Position numbers and translations under genes: made by a program
The notes under the pieces: generated by a model
What the model saw: only the letters and a program-made list of their open reading frames with translations
Told to the model about the DNA's origin: nothing
Database searches by the model: none
Part shown: piece by piece, positions 40,958 to 60,644 of the stretch
Layout of the letters: each line of letters begins with the position of its first letter
Position numbering within the stretch: the first letter of the stretch is position 1
Assembly (NCBI GenBank): GCA_002835545.1
Contig: PIZK01000029.1
Span: 1 to 64,000 of the forward strand
DNA length: 64,000 bases
Direction of reading: 5' to 3'
From: Alteromonadales bacterium alter-6D02
Lineage (GTDB): Bacteria > Pseudomonadota > Gammaproteobacteria > Enterobacterales > Psychrobiaceae

Positions 40958-41128
40958 TATCAATGGTATATCAATGGGGTCATATCAATGGGGTCAGAGT
41001 AGTTGATTCCTATCAATGGGGTCAGAGTCGTTGATTCCTATCAATGGGGTCAGAGTCGTTGATTCCTACCAATGGGGTGTCTAACGAGCCTAAACACCCG
41101 AGTAATTAAGAAGCTAACAACGTCACTG
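40958..41128. repeat. REP cluster with partial core (leftmost copies)
   Basis: Three tandem full REPs (core GGGGTCAGAGT[C/A]GTTGATT at about 40984, 41012 and 41040) preceded by truncated ATCAATGGGG pieces and followed by part of the conserved unit core (GGGTGTCTAACGAGCC ... AACAACGTCACTG). This copy has a perfect GGGTGT / ACACCC hairpin in the core. The right half of the unit is missing. Confidence 0.9.
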
Positions 41129-41188
41129 TAGATTCAATTGGTCAACGCAACACTTTTGTGAAAACATTAGTTAGCAGAGGAAAATTTA

Positions 41189-41347: not shown

Positions 41348-41432
41348 TGTGGGGTTATTGGATTTTAAATAGGTTCAGAAGGTTACTAAAGTAAACTCGC
41401 TAACAATATCAAAGCGTATTTTAGACAATGAA

Positions 41433-41455
41433 AAAGCCTCGAATAGCGAGGCTTT
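41433..41455. terminator. Terminator, also similar to the hairpin inside REP units
   Basis: 9-bp stem AAAGCCTCG / CGAGGCTTT with a 5-nt loop, downstream of the DUF1704 fusion gene. The hairpin inside the repeat units at 48, 52, 58 and 59 kb has nearly the same sequence, so this could be the separated right part of the 41.0-kb copy. Confidence 0.7.
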
Positions 41456-41507
41456 CATTAACCAACCAACTTAAACCACTTATAAACAATTGATACTTAT
41501 CATTAAT

Positions 41508-43499: not shown

Positions 43500-44529
43500 C
43501 TTCGATTACCTTTCTAAACTCAGTTTTTCGGTTCATAACAAACTCTTTGGCATGCACAACACTTTCAACAAAGTCGATAACTTGCGCTTGAAGTTTGACT
43601 CTATTTAGCTTGTTAATACGAACAATCCCTCCAGGACTTAACACATTAACCTCAATTAACTTTCCACCAATAACATCAATGCCGGTAAAATAAAGACCAT
43701 CACGAACAAGTTTAGGGCCAATGTACTTACAGAGTTTTTTCTCTTGGGCAGTAAGTTTATGCTTCACAACATTCCCTCCCGCATGAACGTTCGAACGAAC
43801 ATCGTTTGAAGCAGGCACTCTTTTCATCGCCCCAATAGGCTCACCGTTTAGCATTAATATGCGTACATCACCTTCTTCGGCACCGTGAACATATTCCTGT
43901 AAAATAACATAGTTACTGCCTTTACCAAGCTCATCACCACCGATATAAAAATCCAGCAATGACCTAAAGCTTTGACGCGCGCTTTTCTCTAATACAATGA
44001 CACCTCGACCACCGTAACCGTCTAACGGCTTTAAGATCATTTTGTCGCTTTGTGACTCTTCAAAAATGCGTTCGAGGTAATCTCTATTTTTGGAAACGTG
44101 TGTCGCTGGAATAAATTCACTTTCAGTATCCTGAAAAGATGCTGTATAAACTTTATTATTAGCTACACGTAATCCATCGAGGTCATTCATGATGAATGTA
44201 TCACCACGTACTGAGTCTAAAAAATTTAGCGCTAATGTGTCTAATGGTGGATTGGCACGCATAATAACAGCATCAAAGCCAGCGATCGGCAGTTGTGCCC
44301 GCTTAAAGTTAGCGGTTTTATAAAAGCTAGGAATGTTATCTGAATATTTTGTTTTATTAGTAAAAACATCACAAAAAGCACTGGCAACACTGTCACGAAT
44401 AGTTAAGTTATTAACCGTAGAAAGCGCTACGGTATGACCCCTTTTAACACATTCATGAATTAGTCGGAGGGTGGAGTCGGTCTCAGGTTCGATACGATCC
44501 CAAGGGTACATAATAAAACAGATCTTCAT
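43483..44529 (-). CDS. GshB/RimK-like ATP-grasp ligase
   Basis: About 348 residues. The N-terminal MKICFIMYPWDRIEPETDST resembles the pre-ATP-grasp domain of glutathione synthetase; the ATP-grasp part shows LKPLDGYGGRGV (P-loop-like), VILQEYV and the metal-binding LIEVNVLSPGG. It should form an amide bond between a carboxylate and an amine using ATP. No GshA is nearby and the partner is the MATCAP fusion, so ordinary glutathione synthesis is unlikely. Start set at 44529, where the conserved N-terminus begins. Confidence 0.8.
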   Translation of the reverse strand: MKICFIMYPWDRIEPETDSTLRLIHECVKRGHTVALSTVNNLTIRDSVASAFCDVFTNKTKYSDNIPSFYKTANFKRAQLPIAGFDAVIMRANPPLDTLALNFLDSVRGDTFIMNDLDGLRVANNKVYTASFQDTESEFIPATHVSKNRDYLERIFEESQSDKMILKPLDGYGGRGVIVLEKSARQSFRSLLDFYIGGDELGKGSNYVILQEYVHGAEEGDVRILMLNGEPIGAMKRVPASNDVRSNVHAGGNVVKHKLTAQEKKLCKYIGPKLVRDGLYFTGIDVIGGKLIEVNVLSPGGIVRINKLNRVKLQAQVIDFVESVVHAKEFVMNRKTEFRKVIEDANAV

Positions 44530-44828
44530 TGTAATAAGCCTGTAGAAAGGATACATCTCTATTAGTATCGTTATTTTTTTCGGAGCATACAGAAAACTTG
44601 TGATTAAGGCTGCTAAAAAAAAATTGTCGTCACGTTAAAAATTATTTATAAATAGCTTCTCATAAACATTCTAAAAATATTGAAAATCAGACAAATTAAT
44701 ATTGGTAGTTCTAAATAGCTAATTTTGTACCATGACACATAACCACCAACACGAAAGCACAATGTAATTAAGCAGAAATAGCAGTAACGGAAAAGTCTGA
44801 AAAATCATTATTTAACTTGGGTAAAAAC

Positions 44829-45675: not shown

Positions 45676-45726
45676 TTATCAATGGTATCAATGGGGTCTA
45701 TCAATGGGGTCAGAGTCATTGATTAG
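45676..45726. repeat. REP cluster
   Basis: Two truncated ATCAATGG pieces and one full REP variant (GGGGTCAGAGTCATTGATT) between the LysR stop codon and the 3' end of the AraC-type gene. Confidence 0.85.
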
Positions 45727-47095: not shown

Positions 47096-47208
47096 GCTAT
47101 CAATGGGGTCATATCAATGGGGTCACATATCAATGGGGTCAGAGTCGTTGATTCTATCAATGGGGTCAGAGTCGTTGATTCCATTGATTGTGACCCCATT
47201 GATTGTAT
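47096..47208. repeat. REP cluster (direct and inverted)
   Basis: Two truncated ATCAATGGGGTCA pieces, then two full direct REPs (47129 and 47156), then an inverted degenerate copy (CCATTGATTGTGACCCCATT). It lies between the AhpD start and the retropepsin 3' end. Confidence 0.88.
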
Positions 47209-48034: not shown

Positions 48035-48051
48035 TAAAGTTTCTGTATAAG

Positions 48052-48305
48052 TATCAATGGGGTCATATCAATGGGGTCATATCAATGGGGTCAGAGTCGT
48101 TGATTCCATATCAATGGGGTCAGAGTCGTTGATTCTAAAATCTAGCATAGTTGGGTGTCTAACGAGCATAGGCAGCCGAATAATTAAGAAGCTAACAACG
48201 TCACGGTGTCATTTAGATAGTGCATAACAAGCCTCGATTGGCGAGGCTTTCAATATGCGAGCATAGATATCAACGACTCTTATCAACGACTCTGACCCCA
48301 TTGAT
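48052..48305. repeat. REP-bounded composite unit A
   Basis: Left side: tandem REPs in direct orientation (48081, 48110). Then the core: GTTGGGTGTCTAACGAGC, GAATAATTAAGAAGCTAAC, CACGGTGTCATTTAGATAGT and the AAGCCTCG / CGAGGCTT hairpin (about 48228-48249). Right side: REP in inverted orientation (48279-48304). The same layout recurs at 52.45, 58.19 and 59.04 kb. Confidence 0.88.
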
Positions 48306-48384
48306 TGACTTTAGATTCAGTTGGCTCAGTCATTAATGTGCCAGCGACTGAGAATGACATTGTTGATGCATCAAAATACATATA

Positions 48385-48454
48385 ACAGCCTATAAGTTGT
48401 TATTCTAAAATACAGCTTATATACTGTATTTAACAAATACAGCCTATACCTTGT
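48385..48454. promoter_or_regulatory. Three evenly spaced hipBA operators
   Basis: Related palindromic sites lie at 48385-48400 (ACAGCCTATAAGTTGT), 48411-48428 (TACAGCTTATATACTGTA) and 48438-48454 (TACAGCCTATACCTTGT). Their centres are about 27 bp apart and the last ends 14 bp before hipB. They are the likely autorepressor sites of the HipB protein. Confidence 0.65.
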
Positions 48455-48468
48455 TTTTTGGTGACAAC

Positions 48469-48762
48469 ATGAATTATACAATTAATACCTTAGACCAGCT
48501 TAAACCTATCTTAATAGGGTTTCGTAAGTCACATGGCTTATCACAAAAAGCACTTGCAGAAAAACTTGGTATAAGCCAACAAAGTTATCAAGCATTAGAA
48601 AGTGCGCCGCAAAAAGTAACGCTAGAACGTTTATATAAAGTACTAAACGTTTTGAGTGTTAAATTACAATTTGTCGATAATAAAGAAATAGGTAATGAAA
48701 ATACTAACGACAATTTAAGAGATAAACCCCACCCTCAAAATGACCTGCAGGATGAGTGGTAA
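48469..48762 (+). CDS. hipB: HipB-like antitoxin / Xre repressor
   Basis: 97 residues. The Cro/CI-type HTH reads HGLSQKALAEKLGISQQSYQ, followed by VTLERLYKVLNVLSVKLQF and a flexible polar tail. Start at ATG 48469, after GGTG. Its stop codon overlaps the first base of hipA (TAATG), the usual hipBA coupling. It should bind and neutralise HipA and repress the operon through the three upstream sites. Confidence 0.87.
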   Translation: MNYTINTLDQLKPILIGFRKSHGLSQKALAEKLGISQQSYQALESAPQKVTLERLYKVLNVLSVKLQFVDNKEIGNENTNDNLRDKPHPQNDLQDEW

Positions 48763-50087
48763 TGGCTCAACGCAAACTCAATTCGTTAGCGCTATGGATG
48801 AACGGTGAGTTAGTAGGTCATTGGCGCGTAAAATCCGGCGTGGATGAATTACAGTATGCCGATGAATGGTTAACTAATCCGCGTGGTCGCCCTTTGTCTT
48901 TATCGCTACCATTCACCCCTGGTAATCAGATTATTAAAGGGGAAAAGGTTTCATATTACTTCGATAACCTACTACCAGATAGCCGAGATATTCGCGAACG
49001 CTTAGCAAAAAGGTTTAATACTGGCAGTGTTAAAGTTTTTGACTTGCTTGTTGAGCTTGGTCGAGACTGCGTTGGCGCAATTCAATTACTCCCCGAAGGC
49101 CATCAACCCAAAAATATTAAACAGATTCAGTATAAGCCGTTAGATGAATCAAAAATTGCAGAAAAACTCACGAACGTTGTCAACCTCTCCCCCTTAGCTC
49201 AATTAGACAGCGATAATGAATTACGCATATCACTGGCTGGTGCACAAGAGAAAACGGCATTACTTTGGCATAACAATCAATGGTGTGAGCCATTGGGTGA
49301 AACACCAACCACGCACATTTTCAAGTTGCCAATGGGGTTAGTCGGAAATATGAAAGCGGATATGCAATCATCGGTTGAAAACGAGTGGCTTTGCTCAAAA
49401 ATAATGCCCGAGTTTGGTATTCCAATTGCTCATTGTGATATTGGTATTTTTGAAGGAACGAAAGCATTGATTGTGGAACGGTTTGATCGCAAATTATCAG
49501 CTGATGATTCATGGATAATTCGTTTACCACAAGAAGATTTTTGCCAAGCTAAAGGTGTCTCATCACTGCTTAAATACCAAAGTGATGGTGGCATCAACAT
49601 TGATGACTGCATTAAACTATTATCAAATAGTAATAACGCTAAGATTGATAAGCAGAACTTTTTTAAAGCTCAAATTATATTCTTCTTGTTAGCTGCAACA
49701 GATGGTCACACCAAAAACTTTAGCATTACGCACTTACCAAACAATCAATACAAATTAACACCTCTTTATGATGTATTATCGATACACCCATTGATTGGTA
49801 ACAAAGCAAACCAAATAGCTAAACAAAAAGTTAAAATGGCGATGGCCATCCGAGGCAGTAAAAACTATTACCACTTAGATAAAATACAGTATCGGCATTT
49901 TATTAAACAAGGAACAAGCGCCGGGTTCACAGAGCAAGAAGTTGTGGAGATGATTAACACTGTAGTAAACCAAGTAGACTTAGTTATCGAGAATGTTAGT
50001 AAACTCTTACCACCTGACTTCCCCAAGTCGCTATTTAATAAAATAACTACAGGCATGAAGTCTCAAGCAAAAAAGCTAGATATTTAA
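48762..50087 (+). CDS. hipA: HipA-family Ser/Thr kinase toxin
   Basis: 441 residues. Recognisable blocks: N-terminal couple-HipA domain (PLSLSLPFTPGNQ), LSPLAQL, ISLAGAQEKTALL (P-loop-like), IVERFDR, the catalytic ATDGHTKNFSI and metal-binding LYDVLS. E. coli HipA phosphorylates glutamyl-tRNA synthetase and induces dormancy; the target here is not known. All kinase motifs are intact, so the toxin is probably active. The start at 48762 gives the 1-nt overlap with hipB; a GTG at 48756 is possible. REP clusters lie on both sides of the operon. Confidence 0.9.
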   Translation: MAQRKLNSLALWMNGELVGHWRVKSGVDELQYADEWLTNPRGRPLSLSLPFTPGNQIIKGEKVSYYFDNLLPDSRDIRERLAKRFNTGSVKVFDLLVELGRDCVGAIQLLPEGHQPKNIKQIQYKPLDESKIAEKLTNVVNLSPLAQLDSDNELRISLAGAQEKTALLWHNNQWCEPLGETPTTHIFKLPMGLVGNMKADMQSSVENEWLCSKIMPEFGIPIAHCDIGIFEGTKALIVERFDRKLSADDSWIIRLPQEDFCQAKGVSSLLKYQSDGGINIDDCIKLLSNSNNAKIDKQNFFKAQIIFFLLAATDGHTKNFSITHLPNNQYKLTPLYDVLSIHPLIGNKANQIAKQKVKMAMAIRGSKNYYHLDKIQYRHFIKQGTSAGFTEQEVVEMINTVVNQVDLVIENVSKLLPPDFPKSLFNKITTGMKSQAKKLDI

Positions 50088-50110
50088 TTTCAGCCACTGG
50101 TCCCTACCCT

Positions 50111-50127
50111 CATATCAACGGGGTCAG
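50111..50127. repeat. Truncated REP between hipA and ppiC
   Basis: ATATCAACGGGGTCAGG, a degenerate head of the REP family, 24 bp after hipA. Confidence 0.55.
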
Positions 50128-50207
50128 GCAACCACCATCAACAAAGCCTAGTACAGAGCAAACCAAGCCCTAGGCTTTTTAAAATTTTACTGCTATTTGA
50201 GGTTATT

Positions 50208-50486
50208 ATGGCAAGAACAGCATCAGCACTACATATTTTGGTAAAACACAAAGAGCAAGCACAAGACATCTTAGCGCAACTGAAAAAGGGAGTTAAATTT
50301 CAAACTCTTGCCAAAAAGCACTCCAACTGCCCATCGGGCAAAAAAGGCGGTAGCTTAGGGGAGTTTAAACAAGGTGCAATGGTGCCGGCGTTTGATAAGG
50401 TCTGTTTTACTGGCGAGCTCCTAAAACCCACCTTAGTAAAAACTAAGCACGGATGGCATATCGTCAAAGTGCTTTACCGCACCTAA
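50208..50486 (+). CDS. ppiC: Parvulin-type peptidyl-prolyl isomerase
   Basis: 92 residues, the same size as E. coli PpiC. It consists of a single rotamase domain: [36 protein letters not shown] and [15 protein letters not shown]. Cytoplasmic (no signal). It catalyses proline cis/trans isomerisation in protein folding. Monocistronic, with REP arrays on both sides. Confidence 0.93.
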
Positions 50487-50548
50487 ACTCAATGACTCAC
50501 CCTGCACTAGCGACATCATATTACTAACAATAGAGTGTTTTAAGTGTA

Positions 50549-50600
50549 TCAATGGGGTCATATCAATGGGGTCATATCAATGGGGTCAGAGTCGTTGATT
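50549..50600. repeat. REP cluster at the 3' side of the RAYT gene
   Basis: Two truncated copies and one full direct REP (50576-50600) ending 1 nt before the RAYT stop codon. Confidence 0.88.
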
Positions 50601-50601
50601 C

Positions 50602-51315
50602 TTACTTCAAACGCTTTTCTGTAAACACCACTGATTTTCTGTCTCCGCCCTTGGGTAGTGGAGATGCTCGCCGACCTGAAAGTACTTCAACTTGTTGTTT
50701 AAATTTTTCACTTCCTAGAACCCACATTTTATCTGTCGCCGATTTTATTTCCTCTAACGTTATGGCTGGGATTTCATCGGTAAATAGTATGCGATATCGC
50801 TCTTGCCGTATTATAGGTGTTGACCCTAGGTCATGGTATAGCGCATGTTCAGTAATCAAATCGATATTCTTTCCTGCTCCGTTATGTTGATAACTTGACC
50901 AAGTATACTCAACGGGATGCTCGACCATTCCGGCTCTAACAGGGTTTAACTCGATATAGCGACTCACCACTAAAAAATAGTTATCACTATCAACTAGCGT
51001 TGACTTGTATCGACCTTCCCAAAGAGTCCCGGTACGTTTGTATGCTTGATTGAAATATCGAACATAATAGCGGCCTAGTGATTGCATTAACTGACTCACG
51101 CCTTTCCCTGTGCTTGGCGTTACCAACAAGTGCACATGGTTAGTCATTAAAACATACGCGTGCACTTTGACTTCATGCAACTTGGCATAATGTTTTAGCT
51201 TGTCTAAATACACAACATAGTCATCGGCTTCAACAAACGTCACCTGTCGATTGTTGCCGCGCTGCACAACATGCTGTGGGATATTTGGGAGATTTAACCT
51301 CGGGAGTCTGGCCAT
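50602..51315 (-). mobile_element. REP-associated tyrosine transposase (RAYT, Y1/HUH family)
   Basis: 237 residues, IS200/Y1-type (COG1943). The HUH motif is NHVHLLV (His60, His62); the catalytic tyrosine lies in the DNYFLVVSRYIELNPVRAG helix; the N-terminus MARLPRLNLPNIPQHVVQRG is typical of RAYTs; the tail is basic (SGRRASPLPKGG). RAYTs cut and join single-stranded REP DNA and are domesticated relatives of IS200/IS605 transposases. The gene is intact and flanked by inverted copies of the local REP (50576-50600 and 51383-51406), so it is the obvious driver of the repeat family. Confidence 0.93.
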
Positions 51316-51382
51316 AACCTAAACTAGTCCATTAGTTTATCGTTATTTAACTATAGACTACTAAATCCTATCAAGATAACGA

Positions 51383-51406
51383 AATCAACGACTCTGACCC
51401 CATTGA
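51383..51406. repeat. Inverted REP at the 5' side of the RAYT gene
   Basis: AATCAACGACTCTGACCCCA followed by TTGA, the reverse complement of the copy at 50576-50600, 67 bp upstream of the RAYT start. Confidence 0.88.
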
Positions 51407-51426
51407 CCGTTAGTTACAAGCTAACT

Positions 51427-52362
51427 CTAAAGATACAACTCCATCTGCACATTACAGCGCTCATAAGGCGATGCAGGCCCATCGATATGTTTAAAGCCCA
51501 ATTTAACATAGAGATCAACCGCATGAACCAAGATATCATTGCTCTCTAAATAGAGTCGTTTAGCTCCTAACTGACGTGCTTTCTCTATAATCTTTTGCCC
51601 TAAGACTAAACCAATGCCTTTGCCACGTGCTGAAGGTGACACCGCCATTTTGGCCAGCTCCCACGTATTCCTATCGTACTTAATTAACGCACAACACCCC
51701 ACGGCTTCACCGTTATAGAGCGCGATAAGGATGTGACCAGACTGCTCTGTAATATATTGCTCGGGATTATCCAGCGCTTGATAATCTGGCGTTTCAAGCT
51801 CCCAATATTGGCTGATCCACTCCACATTCATTTGTTTAAAAGCCGCTTGATACTTAGGTTCATAATCAACAATACGAATTGCGTTTTCGCTTGGCTGCTC
51901 ATCAACTCTCGAACTCAACGGGTGATACTTCAAGTGTTGTTGCGTCACGTTTAACGCCTGCCACAAGTCGATCCCAGCTTCTTGATTGAGTCGCTGCATC
52001 GCTAAATCCACAGCGGCACATTGCTTTTCCATGGCTGGAATCATGTGCTTGGCTCGCTCATTTAATGATATCAGCGTAATACGAGAGTCATCGCTCGACT
52101 TAAAACTCTCAATTAAGTCAGCCTTTTTCATTTCCTTAATAATTTTACTTACCGAAACATGCGAATGTTTAATCTCTTTCGCAATATTAACGACCGAATT
52201 AGCCCCTTTAGACGCCAAGACATAAAACACCGGAAACCATTTAGGCTCAATATCGAAATTAAACTGCTGATAAATATTTTCAGCATCTTGAGATACCTGC
52301 GCTGCTAAATTCCTTAGCGCTGTACCTAAAGCAACATGACCTAATTCATTATATGATTTCAT
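51427..52362 (-). CDS. MarR-GNAT fusion (regulator/acetyltransferase)
   Basis: About 311 residues. Residues about 1-150 form a MarR winged-helix domain (SVVNIAKEIKHSHVSVSKII); about 160-311 form a GNAT acetyltransferase with the acetyl-CoA loop SARGKGIGLVLG and the YVKLGFKHI strand. Such fusions occur in many bacteria, with the acetylation substrate unknown. Start at 52362 from the conserved MKSYNELG; the open frame extends another 10 codons. REP units lie on both sides. Confidence 0.85.
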   Translation of the reverse strand: MKSYNELGHVALGTALRNLAAQVSQDAENIYQQFNFDIEPKWFPVFYVLASKGANSVVNIAKEIKHSHVSVSKIIKEMKKADLIESFKSSDDSRITLISLNERAKHMIPAMEKQCAAVDLAMQRLNQEAGIDLWQALNVTQQHLKYHPLSSRVDEQPSENAIRIVDYEPKYQAAFKQMNVEWISQYWELETPDYQALDNPEQYITEQSGHILIALYNGEAVGCCALIKYDRNTWELAKMAVSPSARGKGIGLVLGQKIIEKARQLGAKRLYLESNDILVHAVDLYVKLGFKHIDGPASPYERCNVQMELYL

Positions 52363-52453
52363 AAAAAACAAACTCCGTAACCAGTTACACATAACTTATC
52401 AAAATCGCTTAAATTTTGTCAATAAGGTTTTATCTATAGATGGAGAGGGAAAG

Positions 52454-52672
52454 TATCAATGGGGTCAGAGTCGTTGATTCCTAAACGACTCTGACCCCAT
52501 TGATTGGTTGATTCTAAAATGTCGCGTAGTTGGGTGTCTGACTAGCAAAGGCAGCCGTATAATTAAGAAGTTAAAACGCCACGGTGTCACTTAGATAGTG
52601 CATAACAAGCCTTGATTGGCGAGGCTTTCAATATGCAAGCATAGATATCAACGACTCTGACCCCATTGATTA
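52454..52672. repeat. REP-bounded composite unit B
   Basis: Direct REP (52455-52479) immediately followed by an inverted one (52484-52505), then the core with GTTGGGTGTCTGACTAGC, AATTAAGAAGTTAAAACG and the AAGCCTTG / CGAGGCTT hairpin, and an inverted REP (52647-52671). Its last bases overlap the stop codon of the LysR gene at 52670-52672. Confidence 0.88.
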
Positions 52673-53554
52673 AGAGCGAATATACTCGATAAATGCACTC
52701 AGGGCTGGGTTTGACATTCTGTTTTCAGGGTAGACTAGCGATACATCAAGAGGTTTAGTATTAAAGTCTTGTAAAATTGGAACTAATTTTCCTGAGTCCA
52801 AATAATCGCGCATCATAAAACTAGGCAACCGAGCAACCCCATGGCCTTGTGCAGCAAAAAACGCGACTGCCTCTCCCTTATCAACTTCCAATTCACCAGA
52901 AACCGCCACCGTTTTTTCACTATTATTTTCAATATAACGCCAACGCCATGGCTTACGATTAGAGACTTCAATAATACATTTATGGTTAGGTAATTCTTCA
53001 GGGTGCTTTGCTATGCCGTATTTTTCAATATAATCGGGGCTTGCAACCGTTAAATTTTCAACTTTTGAAAAGGTCTGAACAATAAGATTAGAGTCTTCTA
53101 ACCTGCCAATGCGAATCGCTACATCAACTCCCTCTTCAACCAAATTAACTTGCTTGTTTTGCTGATGCCAAGATACCTGAATGTTTGGATATAGGCACAT
53201 AAAATCACTAATTTTTTGATCAATACCTAACCCTTGGGCATTCTCAGGACTGGTAATTTTTAGCTTACCTGAAATAGTTGACTTACGGTGATTAAGTCCC
53301 ATTTTAAGACTATCTAATTGCGCTAAGATGTCTTTAAACTCAACAATAAAACGCTCCCCTTCAGCCGTTAAGTGCATTGAGCGTGTATTACGATGAAGCA
53401 TTTTACAATCGTAATATGACTCTAAATCCGCAACATTTTTACTAATCGCAGACGTTGCCAAATTTAACTTTTCTGATGCCCCACTAAAGCTTTTTTCCTC
53501 AACGACAGCAATGAATATTCGAATCGTTTTAACTAAATCTATCTTTCTTTGCAA
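52670..53554 (-). CDS. LysR-family regulator
   Basis: 294 residues. The HTH reads TIRIFIAVVEEKSFSGASEK then LATSAISKNVADLESYYDCK; the effector domain follows, with EEGVDVAIRIGRLEDSNLIV, the CrgA/AphB-like pattern. Start is TTG with AAAGG upstream; no in-frame ATG precedes it because of a stop. The stop codon lies inside a REP unit. It is divergent from the secreted MBL hydrolase gene (95-bp gap) and probably regulates it. Confidence 0.88.
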   Translation of the reverse strand: MQRKIDLVKTIRIFIAVVEEKSFSGASEKLNLATSAISKNVADLESYYDCKMLHRNTRSMHLTAEGERFIVEFKDILAQLDSLKMGLNHRKSTISGKLKITSPENAQGLGIDQKISDFMCLYPNIQVSWHQQNKQVNLVEEGVDVAIRIGRLEDSNLIVQTFSKVENLTVASPDYIEKYGIAKHPEELPNHKCIIEVSNRKPWRWRYIENNSEKTVAVSGELEVDKGEAVAFFAAQGHGVARLPSFMMRDYLDSGKLVPILQDFNTKPLDVSLVYPENRMSNPALSAFIEYIRS

Positions 53555-53649
53555 CAGAAATGTCCTTTCTCATTTTTGATATGTTTTAAATGTCCTAATA
53601 ACGATAACCTTTTTAAACACTTATACCTTGCAATACAATAGGAACATCA

Positions 53650-55071
53650 ATGAAGTTGTCATCTACCATTCCTCTCGCTTATTTACTACTTTGCTTACCT
53701 TTATCAGTAGCGGCTGAAGTGCGTTCAGATACTGTGTTGATCACAGATCTAAAAAAACACTACGCGTTCACCAAACAGCTTCAAAAATTATCAGTGACCT
53801 ATACTAAGCAACGAGAAACGGTATTTCAAAGTAATAAATTAGATCAACCTTTCACGATTAATAGCAACTATGAAAAGTTGTTTGATTTAAGCAAAGGGCA
53901 ATTTTACTATCATCAAGTTCATCATTATCCAGGCAACTATATATTTAATGACATCATTGTTCATCAAGAAGGTAAATCTATCCTTTACGATGTAAATGGT
54001 TTCACCAAGGGTAAACAACTCCAATACCTAGATTACAACCAAGCGGACTTTCATCAAGACTTAGCTGAAGATATTGATATTTTTTCAGCACATACTTTTT
54101 TAAGTGATGCAGATTCAAAAAATACGACAATCAAGCGAAGTGATACTTGGGCAGAGCTAACGAAGAGTAACGCCGAAGAGGAGCAGCTAACCTATAGATT
54201 TAATTTACAACCGATACAGCTTGTTTCTGTCATGCAGCACCAATCAAAGAAAAAGACAGAGTATACTAATCCAGTGCAAAAAATGGGGCTAACTTATGCC
54301 AGCAAGGTCCGCCGTTTCACCAAAGGCGAACTAAAAAGTACCGTGAACATCACCAACATAAAAGAAATCCCTCATATTAAACAGACGATGTTAGCTATTC
54401 CACAAGGCTATGGACCATTTGTAGACACTAAAAGAAAACCACTCGAATGGGTTAAACTTGCCAATGATTTATACCTCATTAACCATGTAGCAGGTAATCG
54501 CCATGTATTAGTAAAAATGGATAGCAAGGGATTAACACTCTTTGGTGCACCGGCCTCAAGTAAAGTATCTGAGCAAGTTCAGCTGCTAATCAATAACAAC
54601 TTACCCATGAAAAAAATCCATTCAGTATATATTACCCATGGTCACAGTGATCATATGGGGGGTGTTGGCTATTTTGCCGAGCAAGGTATTACTGTTCTTG
54701 CTGACAAATATAGTATTAGAGCACTAAAGGCCTTTCCTCGCTTTAAAAAAACAGCAACAAATTGGAACTACTCAACTCTGAAACATAAACAAACAGTAAA
54801 TGGCGTAACGTTTTACCTGCCTAAAAACTCACATAGTGATGGACAAAGCTTTGCTTATTTTCCAATGTCAGAAATTATCTATCAGGGAGACTTTTTAGAA
54901 ATACCATTTGATAACAGCTTGCCAACTCACATGGCCGATGTTGAAAAAGAGTTCATCGAATTTCTCTATAGTGAAAAAATCGCTTACAAACGCATTGTTG
55001 GCCACCATAGAAACAACAATATGACACCTGAAGTTGTCAACGCGTATTACAAGGCTCACCATCCAAACTAA
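53650..55071 (+). CDS. Secreted MBL-fold hydrolase with N-terminal extension
   Basis: 473 residues. Signal peptide (CLPLSVAA). Residues about 25-260 form a beta-rich domain I do not recognise; about 270-473 form a metallo-beta-lactamase fold with THGHSDHMGG and later KNSHSDGQSF, IYQGDFLE and VGHHRNNN, giving a full two-metal site. The second half recalls periplasmic quinoprotein-relay-like or SoxH-like hydrolases; substrate unknown. Divergent from a LysR gene. Confidence 0.8.
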   Translation: MKLSSTIPLAYLLLCLPLSVAAEVRSDTVLITDLKKHYAFTKQLQKLSVTYTKQRETVFQSNKLDQPFTINSNYEKLFDLSKGQFYYHQVHHYPGNYIFNDIIVHQEGKSILYDVNGFTKGKQLQYLDYNQADFHQDLAEDIDIFSAHTFLSDADSKNTTIKRSDTWAELTKSNAEEEQLTYRFNLQPIQLVSVMQHQSKKKTEYTNPVQKMGLTYASKVRRFTKGELKSTVNITNIKEIPHIKQTMLAIPQGYGPFVDTKRKPLEWVKLANDLYLINHVAGNRHVLVKMDSKGLTLFGAPASSKVSEQVQLLINNNLPMKKIHSVYITHGHSDHMGGVGYFAEQGITVLADKYSIRALKAFPRFKKTATNWNYSTLKHKQTVNGVTFYLPKNSHSDGQSFAYFPMSEIIYQGDFLEIPFDNSLPTHMADVEKEFIEFLYSEKIAYKRIVGHHRNNNMTPEVVNAYYKAHHPN

Positions 55072-55114
55072 ATGAGTTATCTAATCAAAGTTAATGATTA
55101 ATGCTATGTGTTAA

Positions 55115-55471
55115 TCATGACACATTAGCCTCATCGACAAGCCTAGCAAACTTGTCGATGTGCAGCGCTGCATACAACGGTCTATCACGTGATAATCGGA
55201 GGTCGAGATTAACCATGTATCTCCATTGCTTAAGAGCACTAATCCCTTCTGCTTCAAAGTAGCCTTTTGGTGTTGCTTCGACGACTTTGATATTGATTGG
55301 AACCCCTGAGCAATTCACATCAAATTGCAGTACTAAATCACCAGAAACTCCGGCTTTGATGACCTCGACAGGATATTAATAGCCTTTTCTGAATATGAAC
55401 TTAGGCTTAGCACTAGTGTCAGTTTTTAGGTTCAACGGCTTTTCTGTTATCTCTCCGTGAAGGTGACCCAT
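55115..55471 (-). pseudogene. Decayed TonB-like energy transducer gene
   Basis: A minus-strand frame from ATG 55471 encodes MGHLHGEITEKPLN ... FIFRKGY, a TAA at 55376-55378, then YPVEVIKAGVSGDLVLQFDV, NCSGVPINIKVVEATPKGYF and EAEGISALKQWRY, which is a TonB C-terminal domain. Neither a membrane anchor nor a Pro-rich region is left, and there is another in-frame stop just before the ATG. It is a non-functional relic. Confidence 0.65.
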
Positions 55472-55572
55472 TTACCCACCACAAGGGCGAACCATCGCTG
55501 ATTCACCCTTTCTCAATAAAGAATAGTTGTGACAGTCCCTTCATTTCCTTTGTATCCCCCTTGCAAATATAA

Positions 55573-55587
55573 TGTTATAACATAACA
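55573..55587. promoter_or_regulatory. Zur box upstream of the M3 peptidase gene
   Basis: TGTTATAACATAACA, identical over 15 bp to the Zur site at 3731-3745, 57 bp before the ATG. Confidence 0.75.
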
Positions 55588-55643
55588 CTATAATGGTAAT
55601 CAGTTTCCACATTAAACAAAACTAAAAACGAAGAGAAACAATA

Positions 55644-57803
55644 ATGAAAAAAGTATTAGCTACAGCGATTAGCTCTATTTTATTGATGTCTGGCTGCTCA
55701 GAACCAAGCCAAACAGCTGCACCGACACAAGCGCAGCAAGCATCCTCAGTAGATGCGCAAATCATAAATCCGCTATTCACTCGTAGTGCATTGCAATACC
55801 AAACGCCAAATTTCGATCAAATCAAAGATGAACATTTCTTACCAGCGTTTGAAAAAGGTATTGCTGAGCAAATGGCTGAAATTAAAGCTATCGCTGACAA
55901 CAAAGCAGCACCAACGTTTGAAAATACTATAGTCGCTATGGAAAAGAGTGGTGAGCTATTGACACGCGCACAACGTGTTTTTTATAACTTAGTCGGTACT
56001 GATTCAAACCCACAGCGCCGTGCCATTCAAAAAGAAATGGCGCCTAAATTGGCCGTTCACGGTGACAATATCAGCTTGAATAAAGATCTTTTTAAGCGTA
56101 TTGAAACCATCTATCAACAGCGAAATAGCTTAGATTTAACAGCAGAAGAAGTGCGTTTAATTGATGTTTATTACAAACAATTTATCCGTGCTGGCGCTCG
56201 ATTAAACGAAACGCAACAACAGCGTATTCGAGAGATCAACAAAGAACTTTCTAATCTTGGCACCCAATTTAGCCAAAACATCATGGCGTTAATCAAAAGC
56301 AACGTAGTATTGGTAAAAGACAAAGCACAACTTGCGGGTTTATCTGATACACAACTAGCGCACCTTGCTAAAGCGGCAACAGAAGCGGGTCACGACGGCC
56401 AATACCTTATTAAGATCACCAACACGACCAGACAGCCAATCCTAGCCGCACTTGAGAACCGCGACTTGCGTGAAAAAATATGGCGTGCTTCAGCTGAGCG
56501 TGCTCTATCAGGTGAAAACAGTAATCGTGATGTTGTCCCTTCTATTGCAAACCTTAGGTCAGAACGTGCTGGGTTACTTGGTTACGACAGTTACGCTCAC
56601 TTTGGCTTAGAATCGCAAATGGCCAAAGAGCCGCAGGCTGTCCTTGATATGTTAACCAGCATGGTGCCTTCACTACTAGACAACGTCGAAAACGAATCAG
56701 CTGCTATTCAAGCGAAAATCGACGCCTCAGGTAGCAACTTCAAGCTAGAACCTTGGGACTGGTTCTATTACGCTGAGCAAGTGCGTAAAGAGAAATACAA
56801 CCTAGACGAAAATGAAGTAAAAGAATATTTTGAATTCAACCGTGTCTTGGAAGACGGTGTATTCTTTACCATGAACCGTTTATACGGCATAAGTTTCAAG
56901 CCACGTCCTGACCTACCGGTTTACCACGCTAACGTAAAAGCCTATGAACTGCTGGACGAAGACGGCACAAGTCTAGCTATTTTCTATGCTGACTATTTCG
57001 CCCGTGAAGGCAAGCGTGGTGGTGCGTGGAAAAGCGCTTTCGTCAAACAATCAGGCCTTGATAACCAGCGCCCTGTTATTGTCAATGTCATGAATATTCA
57101 AAAAGCACCAGAAGGTAAGAAAACATTAATTAGCTACTCGGAAGCAACAACAATTTTCCATGAAATGGGGCACGGTATTCACGGCATGTTGTCGCAAGTT
57201 AAGTACCCTACACTATCCGGTACATCAACTTCACGTGACTACGTTGAGTTCCCGTCCACGTTTGAAGAAGACTGGGCAATGCACCCTGAAGTGATTGCAA
57301 ACTACGCCAAGCATTATCAAACTGGTGAAGCGATACCTAAAGCGCTTTTAGATAAAGTAATTGCATCGCGCAGCTTCAACCAAGGGTTCGACACTTTCGA
57401 ATATATTGCTGCTGCGCTGGTTGATATGGAATGGCACTCGCTTCCGTCATCAGCAGGTAAACAAGATATTGTTGAGTTTGAGAAACAGGCGCTTAAAAAG
57501 CATAACGTCGATGTCAGTTTTATTCCACCACGTTATAAATCAGCCTACTTCGCACACGCAATGGGCGGTTACGCAGCAGGTTATTATGCTTACATGTGGA
57601 GTGAGATTTTAGCGGCAGATGCCTTTGCCTACGTGCAAACACAGGGTGGCTTAGATCGGAAGATTGGTCAAAAATACCGTGAAAACATTTTAGAGGTAGG
57701 TAACACCCGTGATCTAATGGAATCATACAAAGCATTCCGTGGTCAGGCACCAACCACCGACGCCCTATTAAAGCGTCGCGGTATCAACGTAAGCACCAAG
57801 TAA
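55644..57803 (+). CDS. M3-family zinc peptidase lipoprotein (peptidyl-dipeptidase Dcp-like)
   Basis: 719 residues. Lipoprotein signal with MSGC (Cys17), then the M3 fold with zinc motif FHEMGHGIHG (His506, Glu507, His510) and the third ligand region STFEEDWAMHPEV. FEYIAAALVDMEWHSL and YYAYMWSEILAADAFAY are Dcp signatures. Dcp removes C-terminal dipeptides; most homologues are cytoplasmic, so the lipoprotein signal puts this one in the periplasm or at the outer membrane. A Zur box upstream predicts induction under zinc starvation. Strong terminator downstream. Confidence 0.9.
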   Translation: MKKVLATAISSILLMSGCSEPSQTAAPTQAQQASSVDAQIINPLFTRSALQYQTPNFDQIKDEHFLPAFEKGIAEQMAEIKAIADNKAAPTFENTIVAMEKSGELLTRAQRVFYNLVGTDSNPQRRAIQKEMAPKLAVHGDNISLNKDLFKRIETIYQQRNSLDLTAEEVRLIDVYYKQFIRAGARLNETQQQRIREINKELSNLGTQFSQNIMALIKSNVVLVKDKAQLAGLSDTQLAHLAKAATEAGHDGQYLIKITNTTRQPILAALENRDLREKIWRASAERALSGENSNRDVVPSIANLRSERAGLLGYDSYAHFGLESQMAKEPQAVLDMLTSMVPSLLDNVENESAAIQAKIDASGSNFKLEPWDWFYYAEQVRKEKYNLDENEVKEYFEFNRVLEDGVFFTMNRLYGISFKPRPDLPVYHANVKAYELLDEDGTSLAIFYADYFAREGKRGGAWKSAFVKQSGLDNQRPVIVNVMNIQKAPEGKKTLISYSEATTIFHEMGHGIHGMLSQVKYPTLSGTSTSRDYVEFPSTFEEDWAMHPEVIANYAKHYQTGEAIPKALLDKVIASRSFNQGFDTFEYIAAALVDMEWHSLPSSAGKQDIVEFEKQALKKHNVDVSFIPPRYKSAYFAHAMGGYAAGYYAYMWSEILAADAFAYVQTQGGLDRKIGQKYRENILEVGNTRDLMESYKAFRGQAPTTDALLKRRGINVSTK

Positions 57804-57848
57804 GTCAATAAGGGTTAATCGCTAGCTAACGCGATTGATAGCCAACAT

Positions 57849-57882
57849 AAAAAGCTTGGTAAGCAATTACCAAGCTTTTTTT
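57849..57882 (+). terminator. Terminator after the M3 peptidase gene
   Basis: 11-bp perfect stem AAGCTTGGTAA / TTACCAAGCTT with loop GCAA and a T-run. Confidence 0.9.
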
Positions 57883-57929
57883 ACGCTCTAATTAAAAGAG
57901 TCTTTATAGCTATCCCTGTTACGATTGAA

Positions 57930-58091
57930 TTAGCCGGACGCTTCAAGATGTTTGTGTTTGCTCCGTGCTTTCTTTTGCATATTTTTCACTATATAGCCAC
58001 TATAATCTATATAGTGACTTAAGCTCTCCTTAGTCATTTGAAGGGTTGAATAGTTGGGAACACGCAACAATTTATTATTGATATTTCGGTA
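57930..58091 (-). other. Possible coding relic with internal palindrome
   Basis: A minus-strand frame between two stops encodes RNINNKLLRVPNYSTLQ, MTKESLSHYIDYSGYIV and a Lys/His-rich end. It looks protein-like but has no clear start and no known family. The TCACTATATA / TATATAGTGA inverted repeat (57986-58017) lies inside it. Confidence 0.25.
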
Positions 58092-58191
58092 GTTTTATTT
58101 TTTACGACGCAAGGATAGCGGTATTAACTAAATCTTGTACTACACTCGCCTTTGTTATATTTAGCTAACCAAGGTAATTTATGACTCGGAC

Positions 58192-58398
58192 TATCAATGG
58201 GGTCAGAGTCGTTGATTCCCGATTGATTCTAAAGTGTAGCGCAGTTGGGTGTCTAATGAGCCTAGGCAGTCGAATAATTAAGAAGCTAACAACGTCACGG
58301 TGTCATTAAGATAGTGCATAACAAGCCTCGATTAGCGAGGCTTTCAATATGCTGGCATAGAGTTAAGGATATCAACGACTGATTACCCCATTGATTAA
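58192..58398. repeat. REP-bounded composite unit C
   Basis: Direct REP (58193-58217), core with GTTGGGTGTCTAATGAGC, AATTAAGAAGCTAACAACG, the AAGCCTCG / CGAGGCTT hairpin (about 58322-58342), and a degraded inverted REP (58370-58397). Confidence 0.88.
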
Positions 58399-58403
58399 TG
58401 GGA

Positions 58404-58604
58404 TTATAATCCTTTATTGAAGTGTCCGGCTAATTCACCCACAACAACATCAGATGATTTAACACGGATATGGCGACCACTCCAGTCGACTAACTGAGAG
58501 TAAGCAGCATAAGAAAATGGAGTGGCATTACTATTTGCACTGCTAAAAAAATGACAATAACCTGCTAGGTTCTGGACGAACACCCATTGACTAATTGCGC
58601 ACAC
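58404..58604 (-). pseudogene. Possible C-terminal relic of another Y1/IS200-like transposase
   Basis: 66 residues from GTG. The segment PFSYAAYSQLVDWSGRHIR resembles the 'PF...YLELVDWTGR.IR' stretch near the end of the ~320-residue REP-type transposases of marine gammaproteobacteria; the link is from memory. The catalytic half is missing. It abuts repeat unit C. Confidence 0.45.
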
Positions 58605-58712
58605 GTTGTTGCTTTTTATAGGAGTGATATTGCATTATTAGCTTTTGAATCGAAGTAAGACAAGTGACAGGCAAAAATTTCATCATAACATTTCTGCCTG
58701 TCCTGAATTATG

Positions 58713-58929
58713 TTATGAACTACATTTACCTTTTTTAGCCATATCTAGCTTTGAAACTTCTTTTTGGCCTTTACCCTCATCAACAAGTTCAAGGCCAGCA
58801 CCGCCAACAAATACTCCCATCTTGATATACTGGCTTACAAAGTAGTTTTTACCACTTTCAGTTTTAACCAGCAGGTCATTTGGTGAAAATTCCGACTCTG
58901 TTGATAGCTTATGCTCTGCTCCACCTTTA
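58713..58929 (-). pseudogene. 5'-truncated gene relic cut at a REP unit
   Basis: A minus-strand frame with no start codon encodes EHKLSTESEFSPNDLLVKT, ESGKNYFVSQYIKMGVFVGG and AGLELVDEGKG ... GKCSS-stop. It opens directly out of the REP of unit D and shows good coding character. I do not recognise the family; the terminal CSS and spacing suggest a secreted or lipoprotein-like tail. Confidence 0.55.
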
Positions 58930-59040
58930 TCAATGGGGTCAGAGTCGTTGATGCTAAAATGTATCGTTGTTGGGTGTCTAACGAGCCTAGACAGCCGAAT
59001 AATTAAGAAGTTAAAACGTCACGGTGTCATTTAGATAGTG
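58928..59040. repeat. REP-bounded unit D (left half)
   Basis: Direct REP (58929-58952) plus about 85 bp of core (GTTGGGTGTCTAACGAGC to TTTAGATAGTG); it is then replaced by the next unit at 59041, so the hairpin and right REP are missing. Confidence 0.85.
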
Positions 59041-59223
59041 TATCAATGGGGTCAGAGTCGTTGATTCCCGATTGATTCTAAAGTGTAGCGTTGTTGGGTG
59101 TCTAACGAGTCTAGACAGCCGAATAATTAAGAAGTTAAAACGTCACGGTGTCATTTAGATAGTGCATAACAAGCCTCGATTGGCGAGGCTTTCAAGATAT
59201 CAACGACTCTGACCCTATTGATT
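59041..59223. repeat. REP-bounded composite unit E (complete, 183 bp)
   Basis: Direct REP (59042-59066), full core with the AAGCCTCG / CGAGGCTT hairpin (about 59171-59192), inverted REP (59199-59223). Tandem with unit D; the shortest complete example. Confidence 0.9.
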
Positions 59224-59240
59224 TTAAAAAACTCAGCTAT

Positions 59241-59432
59241 ATGAGTCCCTTTATCAAAGGACAACATATTGAATTGCCTTTTGACGGAAGTTATAAGATG
59301 CTCTCAAAATACTTAAAGCACTTAAGCTCACTTGGTCTTATTAAACCAGCAAATACTCGTGGTATGTATAACCTAAGCTTCAATGGTCCACATGACGCTA
59401 TCAACGCCATTATACCGCTCTACTCATATTAG
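59241..59432 (+). CDS. Small ORF, 63 residues, possibly a truncated gene
   Basis: ATG 59241 lies 18 bp after unit E. The peptide IELPFDGSYKMLSKYLKHLS then SLGLIKPANTRGMYNLSF looks like a small winged-helix end. The frame is open back into the REP, so a longer ancestor may have been cut. It overlaps the 3' end of the convergent PD-(D/E)xK gene by 9 bp. No family recognised. Confidence 0.4.
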   Translation: MSPFIKGQHIELPFDGSYKMLSKYLKHLSSLGLIKPANTRGMYNLSFNGPHDAINAIIPLYSY

Positions 59433-59819
59433 CTTGAATGCTTTTATAAAGTTTTTAGGATGTTGATGAAATCTGACATGTCCTTTGGCATTCAATCGTT
59501 TTCGAGTTTGTCTGAATGGCGGTGTTATATACCCCCAGTTTCCAACTCTGGAGAAGTAAATAACATAATCAATTTTTGCATCCCCCCATTTATTTTCAAC
59601 TAGGATATCTTCTTCATTTGATTCAACTGATTTAACTTGAATACGATAAAAATAATCGCCATCAGAGATGACAAAATCTGTTTTTAGTCCGTGATCGATC
59701 ATTGGCAAGAAAACATCCCAACCATCATTAAGTAACCAGCTTGCTGCTAGTGTTTCATACGAAAGGCTTTTATAGTGCTTTAAAGATTGATTTGCTGGTG
59801 TTGAGTTTTTTACAGGCAT
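59424..59819 (-). CDS. PD-(D/E)xK endonuclease-like protein
   Basis: 131 residues. The nuclease core is LKTDFVISDGDYFYRIQVKS: Asp, then a beta strand and Q-V-K, the PD-(D/E)xK signature with Gln in place of Glu, as in Holliday-junction resolvase-like and intron-encoded types. The N-terminus has YETLAASWLLNDGWDVFLP, the usual first helix and strand. It may cut DNA in a defence or mobile context. Small and free-standing; partner unknown. Confidence 0.65.
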   Translation of the reverse strand: MPVKNSTPANQSLKHYKSLSYETLAASWLLNDGWDVFLPMIDHGLKTDFVISDGDYFYRIQVKSVESNEEDILVENKWGDAKIDYVIYFSRVGNWGYITPPFRQTRKRLNAKGHVRFHQHPKNFIKAFKLI

Positions 59820-60110
59820 AGTTATATCCGATATAAATTAATGCCGTATGCCAGTGGGTCTTCAGCTAACGGACAGGGATTCCGTTTGGAATTTCCTTAA
59901 TTTAAATATCACCATACAACCGTAAGGGTTTGTATCTAATAGCGAAGGCTGCCCGCCTTGCATTTCCCCTAAATGGGTTAGATGCATTAACACTATTATC
60001 AGACTGAGGAGCCTGTGATAAAGCTTAACTTAAACTATCAAAAGATAGTTAAGCCATCAAGAGAAATCTCCTCTCTGTAAACGCTTTATTAGATCCTCTA
60101 CCGGAAACTT
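59820..60110. other. Intergenic stretch without a recognisable gene
   Basis: Contains an AACTATC / GATAGTT hairpin (60033-60050). No coding frame with protein-like character was seen. Confidence 0.3.
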
Positions 60111-60131: not shown

Positions 60132-60440
60132 AATCGCCTTAACGCACAGAAACAAAAGGCTTTTGAACATAGCTGCACCGCACTAAAAGAGCTAGGAGTA
60201 TGCGTGAATGTCATCGATGGTATCCATAGTAAAATCATATTTGCAGACAATAAATATATGACGGTTGAATCATTCAACTGGTTTAGTGCAGCTAGAGAAG
60301 GAGAATATGCCAATGTTGAAACGTCATTAGTTTATGCAGGCGATTTAGCTAAAGAAACAAAAACTCATATCGACTTTCTCAACAACCGAATTTTCAGGCT
60401 GTATGTTAAAGACAGTGAATCAACAGAAGTCATTGCCTAA
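60132..60440 (+). pseudogene. Detached 3' end of a helicase-PLD gene
   Basis: About 102 residues with the PLD/HKD motif HSKIIFADNKYMTVESFNWF (H-x-K-x4-D), ending TEVIA. The upstream 21 nt of the open frame (from 60111) look unrelated. The fragment opens with AATCGCCTTA, identical and in frame with the last ten bases of the window, where the large helicase-PLD gene is being read into the same part of its PLD domain. It is most likely a copy of that gene's 3' end. Confidence 0.7.
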
Positions 60441-60539
60441 AGTTTTTTAATGACCACAAATTAACTATTACTAGCAGAGATAAAACTTAGAACCCCTAAT
60501 GAGGGGGCCAGTTTTACTGCACCACTACAGCTTTCAATT

Positions 60540-60644
60540 ATGCGAGCATATAGATATCAACGTCTCTGACCCCATTGATTTGGATTAGCGAGGCTTTCAA
60601 GATATCAACGACTCTGATATCAACGACTCTGACCCTATTGATTG
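60540..60644. repeat. REP cluster (inverted copies only)
   Basis: Inverted REP variant (60556-60580), the right-hand AGCGAGGCTTTCAAGA fragment of the unit core, and two further inverted copies (60604 truncated, 60619-60643). It is the rightmost REP site seen and precedes the helicase gene. Confidence 0.85.

Follow-up and report, generated by a model that had tools for sequence, protein, structure and literature searches.

What multiplied a family of short non-coding units around a single transposase gene, and how did they come to lie in one small patch of a genome? This question is raised by contig PIZK01000029.1 of Alteromonadales bacterium alter-6D02 (C22; 89,752 bp), positions 1-64000 of which form the window analysed here; the genome is a draft of 3,992,016 bp in 45 contigs. 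An earlier reading of the window from its letters alone, called here the original prediction, had described units bounded by repetitive extragenic palindromic (REP) repeats, and had read them either as a non-autonomous element moved by a RAYT or as a family of small RNAs with its own terminator. The comparison reported below favours the former. With a probability of about 75%, the units are non-autonomous elements that resemble miniature inverted-repeat transposable elements (MITEs), consist of a core between two terminal inverted repeats (TIRs), were mobilised in trans by the TIRYT transposase encoded in their midst and were amplified close to home.

Repeat search and alignment recovered all four predicted full units, each with the plan of direct TIR, core and inverted TIR (48.08-48.31, 52.46-52.67, 58.19-58.40 and 59.04-59.22 kb; exact positions of these and all other features are given in Table 1), and the predicted partial copies were found as a 5' part at 41.07-41.13 kb, a 3'-truncated copy at 58.93-59.04 kb and two right-end scraps at 60.53-60.64 kb. 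Two further core copies lie beyond the window at C22:64743 and C22:64899. The likeness exceeds chance similarity: the 24-mer repeat had 20 matches at no more than 3 mismatches in the window and none in 100 shuffles, and the first core block, an 18-mer, had 6 matches against a shuffle mean of 0.03. The sequence likeness among copies ends, as judged by eye, at the outer TIR edge. The base before the TIR is T at 13/13 left ends (+ strand), and at the right ends (- strand) it is A in 8 of 9 and G in 1 of 9. The two ends thus differ in their preceding base, indicating that the element is polar, and all copies found share one orientation.

The family is confined to one place. All 22 matches to the TIR in the genome at no more than 3 mismatches fall within C22:40984-64884, with 0 matches to a reversed control pattern, and all 11 matches to the core at E≤1 fall on the + strand of C22:41075-65044. 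The element family has therefore multiplied only inside C22:40971-65061, a patch of about 24 kb around the TIRYT gene of this draft genome. A search of other genomes for the core, as the original prediction had proposed, yielded none outside its own genome in the collections scanned. Among 58 genomes, only its own matched at E≤0.001; plasmid, phage and E. coli collections gave no match; and neither did the GTDB species genome and viral collections, scanned with an exact IUPAC pattern that was derived from the known copies (it matches 6 sites in the window) and that diverged relatives would escape. Short blastn matches of the core to other TIRYT loci (E 0.06 and 0.21) were taken as chance.

The gene in the middle of the cluster is flanked by the same TIR (ATCAATGGGGTCAGAGTCGTTGAT) in inverted orientation and has no other match in the genome at E≤1e-20. 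Its 237-aa product carries the motifs N59 H60 V61 H62, W99 E100 and Y120 IELNP; in an alignment of 11 proteins, NHVH, YIELNP and W99 were invariant and E100 nearly so. The NCBIfam model REP_Tyr_transpos scored 71.7 bits, below its cut-off of 80, no HTH family was found at 0.001 with Pfam profiles (which are not those of Quentin et al.), and no chain among solved structures matched at E≤0.001. Quentin et al. 2018 (PMC6006769) characterise subclass 2.1 of the TnpAY1 proteins by NHVH, W[EQ], YIELNP, a length near 238 aa and a C-terminal HTH-like extension, and consider it the probable equivalent of the TIRYTs in Di Nocera et al. 2013. TIRYT TIRs share GGGGWSAS (Di Nocera et al. 2013, PMC3733652), which is fitted by GGGGTCAG within the TIR studied here. 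The gene thus resembles the TIRYT/TIRtron and subclass 2.1 types (PMC3733652, PMC6006769) in its 237-aa Y1 protein with NHVH, WE and YIELNP and in its GGGGWSAS inverted repeats, and the sequence supports TIRYT, subclass 2.1 type, as the better name for the enzyme, an assignment made by motifs and length.

The repeat likewise calls for another name than REP. A GT[AG]G foot stood directly ahead of 0/22 TIR copies, and the DNA hairpin of the TIR is weak (-1.5 kcal/mol); two TIRs from elsewhere that were also folded form none. Foot, stable hairpin and genome-wide high copy number, the marks of canonical REPs and REPINs (REP doublets), are all missing from a repeat with 22 copies, all within 24 kb. 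On account of the GGGGWSAS-type sequence, the missing foot and the weak fold, the repeat labelled REP in the original prediction is read as the TIR of a TIRYT. The units themselves have the features of a MITE: they are short, non-coding, present in several copies and sharply bordered, and they carry the TIRs of a resident transposase.

The following mechanism would account for these observations. Each unit carries the TIR of the TIRYT element at both ends and, between them, a non-coding core of about 150 bp that would have been captured; the one TIRYT would mobilise the units in trans, new copies landing mostly within a few kb of the donor. The enzyme would recognise the TIRs as single strands and nick a few bases outside them; the resulting end would be joined elsewhere or, after a short extension by a polymerase, back onto the same site, where the rejoining would leave micro-duplications at the outer border. 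For the RAYT-moved element of the original prediction, support came by comparison, from the precise borders, the same TIR at the transposase and the parallel loci described next; the movement itself was unseen and is what we infer.

The same arrangement was found around TIRYT genes elsewhere. A set of 105 loci was assembled from the best 80 of at least 590 relatives in GTDB species genomes, 24 loci of the same order and the locus itself; the 24 came from 25 non-own matches, a contig-edge copy in G170 being dropped, and the loci of G224 and G136 were kept though the gene has internal stops. A flanking inverted repeat scoring at least 13 was found de novo at 82/105 loci, compared with 1/150 control positions placed 4.5 kb off, and the 23 loci without a TIR were dropped from later counts. 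GGGGWSAS was present in the TIRs of 64/82 loci. Extra TIR copies numbered 141 over the 82 loci, own included, and 0 with a reversed-TIR control; they were seen at 36 loci, 13 of which had four or more.

The extra copies become sparser with distance from the gene. With the own locus excluded, their density per 10 kb was 2.24 at 0-1 kb, 1.78 at 1-2 kb, 1.30 at 2-4 kb, 0.51 at 4-6 kb, 0.33 at 6-8 kb and 0.66 at 8-10 kb. When the six richest loci were left out as well, the range of 0-2 kb held 44 copies (1.64 per 10 kb) and that of 6-10 kb held 3 (0.08 per 10 kb). Among the 39 loci, own excluded, that extend 9 kb or more to each side, 18 had more copies below 5 kb than at 5-10 kb, 2 had fewer and 19 had none. 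Genome-wide counts of GGGGTCAGAGT, made in 17 genomes and including the TIRs of the TIRYT element itself, placed 6/7 copies within 3.3 kb in G126, and 5/8 and 4/8 within 1.7 kb in G263 and G243, respectively; 28/41 copies in the single-contig genome G213 lay within 52 kb beside the TIRYT, and 19/19 in G000 lay inside 24 kb.

Units with repeated inner segments also occur at other loci. A scan of the 82 loci, to which three other stretches of G213 were added, gave 59 inverted TIR pairs no longer than 450 bp in 24 stretches, with repeated inner segments in C22, L176, L183, L212 and, more weakly, L168. Three units of L176, a deltaproteobacterial bin, have 27-61 bases of inner sequence in common at 87-93% identity, in both orientations; two 84-bp units of L183, 1.8 kb apart and in opposite orientation, are 98% identical over 44 bases; and two units of L212, 0.7 kb apart, have an identical 26-base spacer. 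At the limits used, different genomes had no inner segment in common. It thus seems that arbitrary DNA has repeatedly come to lie between paired TIRs, with copies of the same inner DNA near each other in these cases. At L085:11238-11430, some 0.7-0.9 kb away from the full element, a TIRYT-like gene fragment was seen by eye between TIRs and looks like an internal-deletion derivative.

Many TIR copies carry a scar at their outer border: a stretch made up of the adjoining flank bases and the first bases of the TIR recurs one or more times in perfect, gapless tandem. Examples in the window lie around 45688, 47100, 48054 and 50549, and others are found at L120, L176 and L168. With the first and third of three limit sets, the scar was counted at 76 loci, 6/82 being left out that have no left TIR of GGGTC[AG] type, and with the first it was found at least once at 43 of them. 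This first limit set, giving 363 TIRs, placed such duplications at 92/363 outer borders, compared with 25 at the mirrored inner position and 1/363 at 300 bases outside; the corresponding values for a second limit set were 104/369, 19 and, at random positions, 0/369. In the first set, the ends of TIRYT elements (41/150) and other copies (51/213) both had it. A third limit set gave 84 events among 365 TIRs, and in 68/84 the second copy begins 8-11 bases before GGGTC. The duplicated stretch often stops right after GG or GGGTC(A). At L120, the few flank bases within the duplication are not the same at the left and right ends of a single element, indicating that the scar is not accounted for by a copy newly inserted from another place.

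A nick just outside the TIR, a short extension and rejoining by the enzyme would explain these duplications, as their sequences suggest; enzyme-free slippage is a possible source as well. We consider it possible, though less likely than not, that TIRYTs work by nicking, extending and rejoining at their TIRs, and that the same reaction builds the nearby TIR-core-TIR elements from captured DNA. The enzyme would nick the flank about 8-11 bases ahead of GGGTC, the freed 3' end would be extended by roughly 8-40 bases, and the displaced strand would be rejoined to the extended end, leaving a perfect tandem duplication across the border as a genomic fossil of single-strand processing. Longer copying with joining elsewhere nearby would make TIR-core-TIR elements and keep them close to the donor.

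Several observations weigh against local amplification by the TIRYT. No extra copy was found in the flanks of 46/82 loci, and a cross-locus control expects 25.9 extra copies against the 141 observed, a figure inflated because loci share TIR families. The density at 8-10 kb exceeds that at 6-8 kb, and the binomial test treats copies as independent and so overstates the evidence, which makes the per-locus counts the safer measure. Confinement is not universal: G036, a genome with a TIRYT, has 76 copies of GGGGTCAGAGT over many contigs. Among the 59 inverted pairs, 17 have no inner segment and may in part be single self-complementary TIRs; the 25-31 bases shared at L168 may include the TIR end; and the stretch L212, with its two units of identical spacer, is some 1.55 Mb away from the TIRYT that was found in G213. 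Insertion was not directly seen, as no empty site was found in G007 or in G213 compared with its congeners: G007 shares 41509-44529 with the window and no unit flanks, and alignments of 10 kb of G213 to five congeners, 3/5 of which matched, end near TIRs without a clean empty site. Repeats may also be collapsed in a draft of 45 contigs. As a separate observation, many of the copies in G036 form close inverted pairs, genome-wide, like a REPIN population.

The alternative that survives best, though we hold it to be unlikely, is passive multiplication, in which short repeats would recombine or undergo replication slippage with no transposase involved. It would fit the many copies that are tandem or partial and a region that also holds an unrelated 399-bp duplication at 97% identity and apparent gene fragments. 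Full units, on the other hand, have unrelated DNA on either side and are bordered by the TIR end, and the pattern recurs around TIRYT genes of other bacteria. Of the 84 border duplications, 47 have no microhomology, 13 have one base and 13 have two or three (the other 11 are arrays with three or more copies), so that slippage between short matches is not needed, and the weakness of the TIR hairpins also speaks against it.

Scarcely different in probability, and if anything a little lower, is import of the 24-kb stretch as a block from a donor with genome-wide elements, by which the clustering would merely reflect the import. Some genes of the stretch, which congeners do not share, give this some footing: that at 43483-44556 is present in 1/8 other genomes of the genus at E≤1e-50, and the best matches of that at 55644-57803 in those 8 genomes are only 33-43% identical, and the latter gene has two further homologues in its own genome (42% and 32%). 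Against such a donor, the TIR at no more than 2 mismatches was found in 9/394 genomes of the order, own included, with a highest count elsewhere of 5, and local clustering recurs elsewhere with different TIR sequences.

The larger copies of the core match the 48-kb copy at 89-97% identity and share one hairpin, which would suit a small RNA or a portable transcription terminator under selection. The core codes for nothing convincing, as predicted, in a six-frame translation of one copy. The AAGCCTCG/CGAGGCTT hairpin, which the original prediction took for a terminator, has no T-tract, and a promoter and terminator scan called 0 terminator-like sites in 48040-48460, covering one unit. RNA fold z-scores of five copies were ordinary (-0.87, -0.50, -0.02, -1.73 and -0.35). 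The proposed covariation check, made on an alignment of just 8 similar rows, gave no compensatory change (0/24 pairs altered in both partners), and a pair of the terminator-like stem is broken in one copy. No Rfam family reached its gathering score in the core; the best match at E≤1, in one unit, was asX2 with 21 bits, and 19 on the other strand, compared with a gathering score of 70. By eye, no matching R''/R' pair of an integron attC site was seen in the core, and no integrase search was made. A selected RNA or terminator is thus highly improbable, and the core is read as passive cargo of the TIR-bounded element rather than as an RNA gene.

Table 1. Positions in the 64,000-nt window of the units, partial copies, TIRs and transposase gene.
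Feature	Position	Strand	Remarks
Ladder of full and partial TIRs, then 5' part of core	40970..41129	+	
Weak match (75%) to core query positions 63-127, hairpin included	41399..41460	+	May be unrelated
Solo TIR	45687..45723	+	Partial copy in front
TIR cluster	47099..47203	.	Two full and two partial direct, one partial inverted
Truncated TIRs upstream of unit 1	from 48053		
Full unit 1	48081..48305	+	TIRs 48081-48104 and 48110-48133, core, inverted TIR 48282-48305
AAGCCTCG/CGAGGCTT hairpin within core of unit 1	48229..48249	+	
TIRYT element, left TIR	50576..50599	+	Partial TIRs ahead at 50548 and 50562
TIRYT gene, 237-aa Y1/HUH transposase	50602..51315	-	Pfam Y1_Tnp E 1.3e-15
TIRYT element, right TIR	51384..51407	-	
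Full unit 2	52455..52670	+	Left end holds additional inverted TIR 52481-52504
Full unit 3	58193..58396	+	Degenerate right TIR
3'-truncated unit	58929..59041	+	Unit 4 directly behind
Full unit 4	59042..59222	+	
Right-end scrap (core end and TIR)	60530..60579	+	Fused to 399-bp duplicated segment
Second right-end scrap with TIR	60583..60642	+	

The weak match at 41399-41460 (62 bases aligned) may represent a progenitor of the core or may be unrelated to it. The 399-bp segment is present at 60132-60529 and at L012:3992-4389 (C22:63991-64388) and holds a weakly PLD-like fragment (Pfam E 5e-4, below the cut-off); the copy at 60 kb joins without interruption onto a unit's right-end scrap and could represent capture of host DNA. 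At L012:4508-4696, a DUF4172-type N-terminal fragment (Pfam E 1.4e-11) runs straight into a TIR at C22:64700. By eye, unit 4 and its truncated neighbour (region 58716-59430) appear to be flanked by two gene fragments that are unrelated and read from opposite strands, the right one with just a weak helix-turn-helix match, so that the region may have been rearranged besides being inserted into. A second related pair, 59424-60046 and C22:82019-82644, is 82% identical over 631 aligned bases and includes the open reading frame 59424-59819.

Local TIR families are known in kind, since accumulation near rayt genes and TIR dimers or clusters have both been reported. Many TIR families occur as dimers or clusters (Di Nocera et al. 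2013, PMC3733652), and local accumulation of REPs near rayt genes was described in 2010 by Nunvar et al. (PMC2817692), who proposed from a few cases that copies form near the gene and whose marine cases could be of the present kind. The Stenotrophomonas REPs of that paper differ in having a GT(A/G)G head and a GC-rich palindrome, and the segments between REPs in bacterial interspersed mosaic elements are said there to be non-homologous to one another. REPINs (Bertels and Rainey 2011, PMC3116915) are similar as RAYT-linked inverted doublets of short repeats with clusters beside RAYT genes; in SBW25, however, 1,422 REP 16-mers are spread genome-wide, compared with 22 TIRs in 24 kb here. The present units fit MITEs as listed in PMC3733652 (70-300 bp, terminal inverted repeats of 15-30 bp, no coding capacity), which in the available text of that paper have no link to TIRYTs, and they differ from the TIRYTs described there in that a conserved non-coding core, enclosed by a TIR pair, recurs as one unit. 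Neither conserved-core TIRYT units nor the border duplication was found in the open-access literature searched, figures and supplements aside, which is weak evidence of novelty; the conserved-core units for TIRYTs and the border scar are apparently new.

For the enzyme family, the results show that repeat families can go with genes of the subclass 2.1 type; the 2018 survey reports no REP-like repeats for this subclass (Quentin et al. 2018, PMC6006769). As to the way in which RAYT-like HUH enzymes copy their repeats, the distance decay, the independent units with repeated cores and the recurrent scar lead to specific predictions about the position of the nick, the length of the extension and the proximity of new copies to the donor.

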